Below, one piece after another: positions 11,222 through 12,893 of a stretch of 33,541 bases of DNA. The stretch spans positions 1 through 33,541 of the forward strand of contig CADDZJ010000041.1 of assembly GCA_902812415.1 (NCBI GenBank), read 5' to 3'. Numbering within the stretch: the stretch's first letter is position 1; the number at the start of each line of letters is the position of its first letter. The notes under the pieces are model-generated. The model searched no databases, was not told the DNA's origin, and saw only the letters and a list, made by a program, of their open reading frames with translations. A program made the position numbers and the translations under genes. The DNA is from Acidobacteriota bacterium. Lineage in GTDB: Bacteria > Acidobacteriota > Terriglobia > UBA7540.

Positions 11222-11476
11222 TTACGACTCAATGCCCAGGTCGCGGGCGAACTTTTCAGCGTCGAATGGCGATGCGTGGAAAACCCTGCCATCCACCTCA
11301 ATGGTTGGCGTGCGCTGTTTGCCCTGATTGACGCTCTTGACGAATTCCGCAGCCTCCGGATTCTCTTCAATATCGATTTCCTGAAAAAGAATCTGCCGTT
11401 TGGCGAGGAATTCCTTCGCCGCCTGAGAATCCTCACACCAGGTTCGCGTATAGAGGCGGATGTGATGCTGAGTCAT
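11222..11476 (-). CDS. Glutaredoxin-like protein with a C-x-x-S site
   Basis: An 84-residue thioredoxin-fold protein of glutaredoxin size. The active site is TWCEDSQ (Cys14, Ser17), so the resolving cysteine of the usual C-x-x-C is serine, and Cys14 is the only cysteine in the whole protein. The cis-proline segment RTPTIEVDG follows at the expected place, then RVFHASPFDAEKFARDLGI. A single-cysteine site suggests glutathione-dependent monothiol chemistry or a scaffold role rather than disulfide reduction. A GTG start 12 bases upstream is possible, but the ATG at 11476 is better placed eight bases after GGGGTGA. It is transcribed toward the protease gene, about 400 bases away. Confidence 0.8.
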   Translation of the reverse strand: MTQHHIRLYTRTWCEDSQAAKEFLAKRQILFQEIDIEENPEAAEFVKSVNQGKQRTPTIEVDGRVFHASPFDAEKFARDLGIES

Positions 11477-12201
11477 GATCGGTGTCACCCCTTGACAAGG
11501 TTATTGCGAAACGTGAAGCGGTCTTTTTCACTGCAACGCATGGAAATGGCAAAGGCCTTCTCGCGCAAGCGCGAATTTATGAGCCCGCCCCCGCTTGCGC
11601 GCGGGTGATAACAAAAGGCGCTTGCGAGCGGAAGGCGACGTTGCACAGTTCTTTTACGCCCCTGTCAAGCTTCGCAAAATCTGCCTGCTGTGTAAATGCG
11701 CATGGCATTGTGTAAGAAATGCTGCCTGATTGTTTTCTTCTCAGGCGTTAGAAGTTTTATGCAATATCCCCCTAGCAGACTGAAAAGAGAGTGCGTAAAG
11801 GATCATGATGCAAACTGCCGCCTTTTGGCATTGGCTTTGCACCTTAGAGAATTGAACGTACGGAAGTTGAAGAGCCATGAGAGCCTGGCCCGTTGCGGCG
11901 CTGGACCTTGGTTCAATCCCCCTTCCCACCGCTCTGGCTTCGGCCAGAGAGGGCTGGCGTCGCGGCGGGTCAGGAATTTTTCTTGTGATGCTCGGATGCT
12001 CTCCGTACGCTTCCTTCAAAATGCGGAGGAACGGGTGTCGAATTCGCGCGAAGAAGAGTGCCTAACTCGCAAGGGTTTTGTGTGACACGCCGGGCGCCTT
12101 GAGGGATTGATGCCGATGTGAAATTGCCGCAACAATCCGCCAGCAGAGTTTTCAGCACGATTTGAGGACTGGCTTACAAACCAGTTCTATAACCCCAGCC
12201 G
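11477..12201. other. Long gap upstream of rimP, without a convincing gene
   Basis: About 700 bases in which all open frames are short and look random. The stretch contains a long imperfect RNA helix (11884-11974) with a closing helix around it, described separately. Further right it has a small hairpin, ACTGG-N8-CCAGT (12168-12185), whose loop happens to resemble a tRNA-Val anticodon loop, but no tRNA can be folded. Confidence 0.5.
11849..12017 (+). ncRNA. Candidate structured RNA (long G-U-rich helix)
   Basis: Read as plus-strand RNA, 11884-11907 pairs with 11951-11974: 23 of 24 positions pair and six of them are G-U, with a single A-G mismatch. Inside, 11932-11938 and 11943-11949 form a perfect 7-bp hairpin closed by a C(UUCG)G loop. 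Outside, CGTACGGA (11857-11864) pairs with TCCGTACG (12002-12009), possibly extended by short AT-rich pairs. The result is a closing stem, an open internal bubble and a long apical arm, the general plan of 6S RNA, though I cannot match 6S sequence motifs. The G-U pairs favour plus-strand RNA. A U-tract (11977-11981) directly follows the apical arm, so it might instead be a terminator stem. No good promoter was found. Confidence 0.35.
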
Positions 12202-12240
12202 AAAGGGGGCGCATGAAAAATTGCGCCCCCTTTTTATTTT
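12202..12240 (+). terminator. Strong intrinsic terminator upstream of rimP
   Basis: AAAGGGGGCGCA (12202-12213) and TGCGCCCCCTTT (12222-12233) are exact reverse complements with an 8-base loop, followed by a T-rich run to 12240. It must end a transcript from further left, although no gene is seen there. CCCC at 12193-12196 can pair with GGGG at 12205-12208, a potential competing hairpin. Confidence 0.85.
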
Positions 12241-12296
12241 GCTTACAAGGCCCTACGCTGTTGAAGACTCTTCCTGTCACATTGCTTTCTGCTGCC

Positions 12297-12325
12297 TTGC
12301 TTTTGAGCGGGGGCGGGGCTATACT
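12297..12325 (+). promoter_or_regulatory. Candidate sigma-70 promoter of the rimP operon
   Basis: TTGCTT (12297-12302) and TATACT (12320-12325) are 17 bases apart. Transcription would begin near 12332, about ten bases before the attenuator hairpin, leaving a leader of about 100 bases before rimP. Confidence 0.65.
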
Positions 12326-12341
12326 TAATCGTGAAGGGTTG

Positions 12342-12374
12342 AAGTGGGCGAAAGCCCACTTTTTTATTGTGGGC
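12342..12374 (+). promoter_or_regulatory. rimP leader attenuator
   Basis: AAGTGGGC (12342-12349), a GAAA tetraloop and GCCCACTT (12354-12361) make a perfect 8-bp hairpin followed by a T-run (12360-12365), a textbook intrinsic terminator sitting between the promoter and rimP. A second GTGGGC at 12369-12374 can pair with the same GCCCAC (12354-12359) in an alternative fold. A terminator hairpin of this kind before rimP is known in other bacteria as the rimP leader. Confidence 0.7.
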
Positions 12375-12434
12375 TGAAGTATCTCTGGGAAATGCCGGCC
12401 TCGCTTATCCAGCCTGGGCGAAGATAAGTTCTAA

Positions 12435-12893
12435 ATGACGGTCGATTTGGAAAAGATCAGGAGCATGGCCGAGCGTATTGTCGCTTCAGAAGGTCTCACG
12501 CTTTTCGACGTGGAATTGAAGGGAGGCCGGGCGAATCAACTGCTGAGGGTCTATATTGACAAGCCTCAGGGTGTTTCCCACAAGGATTGCCAGACGGTCA
12601 GCGAGCAGTTGAGCGCCATGCTGGATGTGGAAGACCCTTTTCCAGGTCGGTATACGCTGGAAGTTTCTTCACCAGGCCTGGAGCGTGAACTGGTGAAAAC
12701 GCGCGACTATGAATATTTCACGGGCCGCCTCGCTCGTCTGGTGCTGCGAGAACCCGTGGGCGGGCAGAAGGTGCTGGAGGGGCGGCTGGCCGGCTATCGA
12801 GACGGCCAGGTGCGACTGGACGTAGGCAAAGGGCAAATCCGCGCGATGGATTTCGCCAATATCGCCAGGGCGCGATTAGTGCTGGAGGAGTAG
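12435..12893 (+). CDS. rimP: Ribosome maturation factor RimP
   Basis: A 152-residue cytosolic protein needed for maturation of the 30S subunit. The N-terminal domain shows MAERIVASEGLTLFDVELKG and LRVYIDKPQGVSHKDCQTVS, followed by the signature YTLEVSSPGLERELVKTRDY that links to the small C-terminal beta-barrel (VLEGRLAGYRDGQVRLDV). Length is typical. It opens the rimP-nusA-infB operon; nusA begins 59 bases downstream. No strong Shine-Dalgarno sequence precedes the ATG. Expression is probably set by the attenuator at 12342-12374. Confidence 0.96.
   Translation: MTVDLEKIRSMAERIVASEGLTLFDVELKGGRANQLLRVYIDKPQGVSHKDCQTVSEQLSAMLDVEDPFPGRYTLEVSSPGLERELVKTRDYEYFTGRLARLVLREPVGGQKVLEGRLAGYRDGQVRLDVGKGQIRAMDFANIARARLVLEE

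Follow-up and report, generated by a model that had tools for sequence, protein, structure and literature searches.

A strand-biased, single-copy hairpin upstream of rimP in a soil acidobacterium as a candidate lineage-restricted non-coding RNA

Introduction

6S RNA (RF00013, SsrS) is a small non-coding RNA with a closing stem, a large central bubble and a long apical arm, and its gene adjoins zapA in E. coli. It binds to the sigma70 form of RNA polymerase and serves as template for product RNA. Other small RNAs are orphans, e.g. the UCCC-motif RNAs of staphylococci, which are intergenic and carry C-rich loops. Long intergenic hairpins can also belong to dispersed palindromic repeats or MITEs, which occur in several copies. 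Finally, the leader of rimP has been named as an attenuator (PMC5391140; PMC5955585).

Here, we analyse a hairpin that lies upstream of rimP in a soil acidobacterium (genome G000). All coordinates refer to the window, i.e. the whole stretch of DNA that was analysed (33,541 nt). A first-pass annotation had described the segment 11849–12017 as a long, G-U-rich RNA helix in a gene-free gap, with an overall plan like that of 6S RNA.

Results

The segment is located in a gap of 946 bp (11489–12434) that separates two divergently oriented genes:

11222–11488, − strand: glutaredoxin gene (PF00462 match)
12435–12893, + strand: probable rimP, with probable nusA and infB coming next (the three names are read from sequence and gene order)

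Codon scores are negative for the ORFs of this gap that surround or cross the hairpin, none of these ORFs matches Pfam, and the gap is therefore taken as non-coding, as the first-pass annotation had it. Rfam searches of the window (gathering threshold) and of the gap (E ≤ 10) returned nothing relevant, and a search for tRNA and tmRNA genes returned none. A T-loop-like sequence (GGUUCAAUCC) was considered and rejected, because the T-stem is unpaired and no Rfam model matches. The ideas of a retron or a Y-RNA were rejected likewise, there being no Rfam model match and no reverse transcriptase in the ORFs scanned.

Within the segment, the following elements are recognised or predicted:

11857–11864, + strand: closing stem, 5´ side (CGTACGGA), from sequence and fold; extends to 11854–11867 with small bulges
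11872–11909, + strand: 5´ arm of a long rod, including 11884–11907 with six G-U pairs, from the fold and the arm alignment
about 11912–11931, + strand: C-rich lateral loop (UUCAAUCCCCCUUCCCACCG), predicted to be unpaired in the centroid; its role is putative
11932–11949, + strand: 7-bp hairpin without mismatches, capped by a cUUCGg tetraloop, read directly
11950–11993, + strand: 3´ arm of the long rod, from sequence and fold
12002–12009, + strand: closing stem, 3´ side (TCCGTACG), read directly

The pairings claimed earlier were borne out. In an ungapped register, 11884–11907 pairs with 11951–11974 at 23 of 24 positions, six of the pairs being G-U and the sole mismatch A11905-G11953. The 8-bp closing stem (11857–11864/12002–12009) is perfect, and so is the UUCG-capped hairpin (11932–11938/11943–11949, CTCTGGC-TTCG-GCCAGAG), the loop of which has the RNA-stable cUUCGg form. 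The predicted fold is in fact stronger than first described, namely a near-continuous rod of ~50 pairs, interrupted by small bulges, a single 4x4 internal loop and the C-rich lateral loop. On the + strand, the MFE of 11849–12017 is −86.6 kcal/mol (z −5.9, or about −6, against dinucleotide shuffles), a value that was unmatched among the shuffles (0/8,000; lowest −80.0). The − strand of the same segment, at −62.1 (z −1.75), is weakly better than its shuffles. That the fold is far below shuffles on the + strand and not on the − strand counts for an RNA made from the + strand.

One part of the earlier description did not hold. The large bubble is absent from the predicted fold, since base pairs fill most of that region in both the MFE and the centroid structure, with 11872–11883 joined to 11980–11993. 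The likeness to 6S RNA is limited to a closing stem, a long apical arm and a similar length, and the proposed resemblance failed on other grounds as well. RF00013 has no match at E ≤ 10 in 11500–12450. A model built from 12 aligned 6S genes of the class (R1) gives true members 98–146 bits (mostly from the training set, two not), whereas the segment scores 4.2 bits, which is background. In the three members of the class examined (G004, G018 and G043), 6S sits between zapA and a ymdB-like phosphoesterase gene, whereas the present element is found upstream of rimP; the zapA–ymdB site is a habit of the class and not a defining trait of 6S RNA.

It is conceivable that a 6S RNA has moved here and diverged strongly, so as to replace the standard copy missing from this family. 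With model R1, 6S is recognisable in only 2 of the family's genomes examined, and most of them, G000 included, are without a recognisable 6S at the zapA–ymdB site or elsewhere. In G000, this site (L086, contig C6; compared with L066, L067 and L062) keeps its gene order and has palindromic repeat DNA inside, with no recognisable 6S. The best RF00013 match in G000 (C109:10360, 20.3 bits) is not among the hits of the acidobacterial model and was rejected. A closing stem and a size of 153 nt are roughly what a 6S RNA would have, but the absence of an Rfam score, the background score with R1, the lack of a large central bubble and the absence of the element from sister genomes that are also without 6S make this explanation highly improbable.

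To place the hairpin in its genomic context, its strength, corrected for length and GC, was compared across 433 kb of the same assembly (a 400-kb sample and the window). Approximately 15 loci, this one included, have an equal or stronger hairpin, i.e. ~1 per 30 kb, and all but two or three of them are dispersed palindromic repeats with sequence common to several other places in the sample. Dispersed intergenic palindromes that form long hairpins are abundant in this genome (GTCATTCTGAGCGAAGCGAAGAATC and TGTAGCGCCGGCG types; L123:13656, L111:13109, L112:6975, L105:14328 and others). A group II intron match is also seen, near the start of contig C6 (RF00029, 56 bits; L111:53–126). The repeats of the GTCATTCTGA...GAAGAATC and TGTAGCGCCGGC types are long intergenic hairpins of a stability similar to that of 11849–12017. 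They are multi-copy and mostly of similar strength on both strands, whereas the present hairpin is biased to the + strand, single copy across the whole assembly and assignable to no recognisable repeat family. Classification as a dispersed palindromic repeat or MITE, for which several copies are needed, was therefore rejected. The other strong near-single-copy hairpins, L120:11093 and L115:10337, are near-perfect palindromes and fold strongly on either strand; that at L120:11093, single copy and with ~24 bp per arm (GGGATGGTCGCAGACATGGCGTAC), lies towards the end of a long ORF. In the 433-kb sample, 11849–12017 is the sole single-copy hairpin of such strength with a clear strand bias, which counts for an RNA gene.

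The G-U pairs had been taken by the first-pass annotation as a sign of + strand RNA. When the arms are aligned without regard to strand, 40 Watson-Crick pairs, 8 G-U and 0 A-C are counted, together with 7 other mismatches that fall mainly within the internal loop. Neutral decay of a palindrome would yield a ratio of 8:0 with a chance of ~1 in 256, so that the pattern is unlike passive decay and counts for + strand RNA. The bias itself is thus upheld. It is suggestive rather than proof, since the dispersed-repeat pair at L123:13656 shows a similar one (11 G-U, 0 A-C).

These comparisons bear on a second explanation, that of a hairpin without function. The fold could have arisen by chance in a long spacer, or could be what is left of an old inverted repeat; palindromic intergenic repeats abound in this genome. 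The frequency of equally strong hairpins, nearly all derived from dispersed repeats, counts for such an origin, but the absence of any other copy, the G-U to A-C ratio and the scarcity of near-single-copy hairpins of this strength, the others of which are strong on both strands, count against it. We consider a non-functional hairpin almost as likely as a lineage-specific transcript.

Conservation of the helix in close relatives, to which the first-pass annotation had tied its proposal, was absent in all searches; the nearest relatives compared are distant (RimP 70–74% identical). In a blastn search of the gap in 61 genomes, relatives match only 12293–12374 upstream of rimP and never the helix. 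The helix itself has no blastn homologue in 39 genomes of the family and 399 genomes of the class, nor in the phages and plasmids searched. A structure model of the helix, run over the 39 family genomes, matched only itself and loci in G029, which were dismissed as unrelated perfect palindromes. In 28 relatives, the gaps upstream of rimP lack a + strand hairpin like this one at the corresponding position. Among three members of the genus, the genes upstream of rimP differ and nothing there is similar to the hairpin, which counts for a hairpin without function. Recurrent 21-nt matches of 11966–11986 in relatives mostly lie in APC-type permease genes, where they correspond to the motif GSGIFLV (read from the translation), and were taken as coincidence. 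Conservation or covariation would support an RNA gene and is not strictly needed for one. The lack of a homologue in any search, and so of covariation, counts against an RNA gene and for a hairpin without function, although a fast-evolving RNA could escape such searches given that the nearest relatives share only 70–74% of RimP.

Signals that may govern transcription were found on both sides of the hairpin:

11825–11852, + strand: putative weak sigma70-like promoter (TTGGCA-16-GAGAAT) with a predicted start at ~11858–11860, the foot of the closing stem
11977–11984, + strand: U-tract (TTTTTCTT) two bases past the 3´ end of the long arm, a possible terminator of a ~125-nt transcript
12201–12234, + strand: strong intrinsic terminator, a 13-bp stem followed by TATTTT, with no same-strand protein gene before it

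Besides the first of these, neither strand of 11450–12500 has a promoter-like site (0.3 are expected by chance); its −10 element is poor. The terminator at 12201–12234 is among only 8 of this strength on both strands of the 433 kb, and the sole same-strand ORF upstream of it is the spurious one that crosses the hairpin. A strong terminator after a non-coding gap and a lone promoter-like site at the foot of the stem count for an RNA gene; the weakness of the promoter counts against one. Together, a terminator that no gene precedes and a weak promoter-like site with a start that would fall on the closing stem point, as judged from sequence, to an RNA gene. The surroundings resemble a transcription unit, and transcription itself is something we infer.

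Alternatively, the long arm and the U-tract could act together as an intrinsic terminator of unusual size. It would be one of several on the + strand that keep upstream transcription from reaching rimP and its promoter. The location of the U-tract directly beyond the arm and the presence of more + strand terminators at 12201–12234 and 12341–12362 are in keeping with this. However, an ordinary intrinsic terminator is a compact, GC-rich stem-loop behind a gene, with the U-tract right after the stem. The hairpin that precedes the U-tract here spans ~90 nt, far exceeding this size, no + strand gene upstream needs a stop, and the closing stem, which lies outside the U-tract, would be superfluous. 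We regard this role as unlikely.

The sequence that is shared with relatives, 12293–12374, is a conserved rimP leader in which a promoter-like TTGCTT...TATACTT is followed within ~20 nt by GAAGTGGGCGAAAGCCCACTTTTTT. It has blastn matches in 40/60 relatives across the class and adjoins rimP where checked. From its sequence, rimP in this class appears to carry a strongly conserved promoter-proximal terminator hairpin. The leader resembles the gammaproteobacterial rimP leader attenuator (RF01770); the RF01770 model gave no match to it.

Discussion

Our leading interpretation, held tentatively and with rather less than even confidence, is that 11849–12017 makes up the structured portion of a non-coding RNA that is restricted to this lineage and transcribed from the + strand. 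The structure and the terminator are read from the DNA, and transcription we infer. An RNA-level reading of the hairpin is plausible. The transcript would begin near 11858, at the base of the closing stem; its 3´ end would fall either at the U-tract near 11984 (~125 nt) or, more likely, at the terminator 12201–12234 (~380 nt). The RNA would fold into a rod of ~50 pairs, capped by the cUUCGg hairpin, such that the C-rich loop is exposed sideways. Its likeliest action would be that of an ordinary small RNA, in which the rod shields against decay and the C-rich loop is a candidate for pairing with G-rich ribosome-binding sites. This mechanism for the loop is a guess. A bolder variant seems improbable: the segment would represent a new family of lineage-specific structured RNA in a clade that has lost its recognisable 6S RNA, and the rod and the C-rich loop would control translation or serve to bind a protein.

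Among described systems, orphan intergenic sRNAs with C-rich loops provide a close parallel in that the locus is a candidate for a single-copy intergenic transcript, has a terminator of its own and has a C-rich loop that is predicted to be unpaired. It differs from them in its unusually long and continuous stem and in having no relatives.

If transcribed, the hairpin would add one more to the orphan small RNAs of the acidobacteria, a group in which few have been examined. Two side results weigh at least as much, namely that 6S RNA appears to be missing or unrecognisable in most of this family, and that the class appears to have a conserved promoter-proximal terminator hairpin at rimP.
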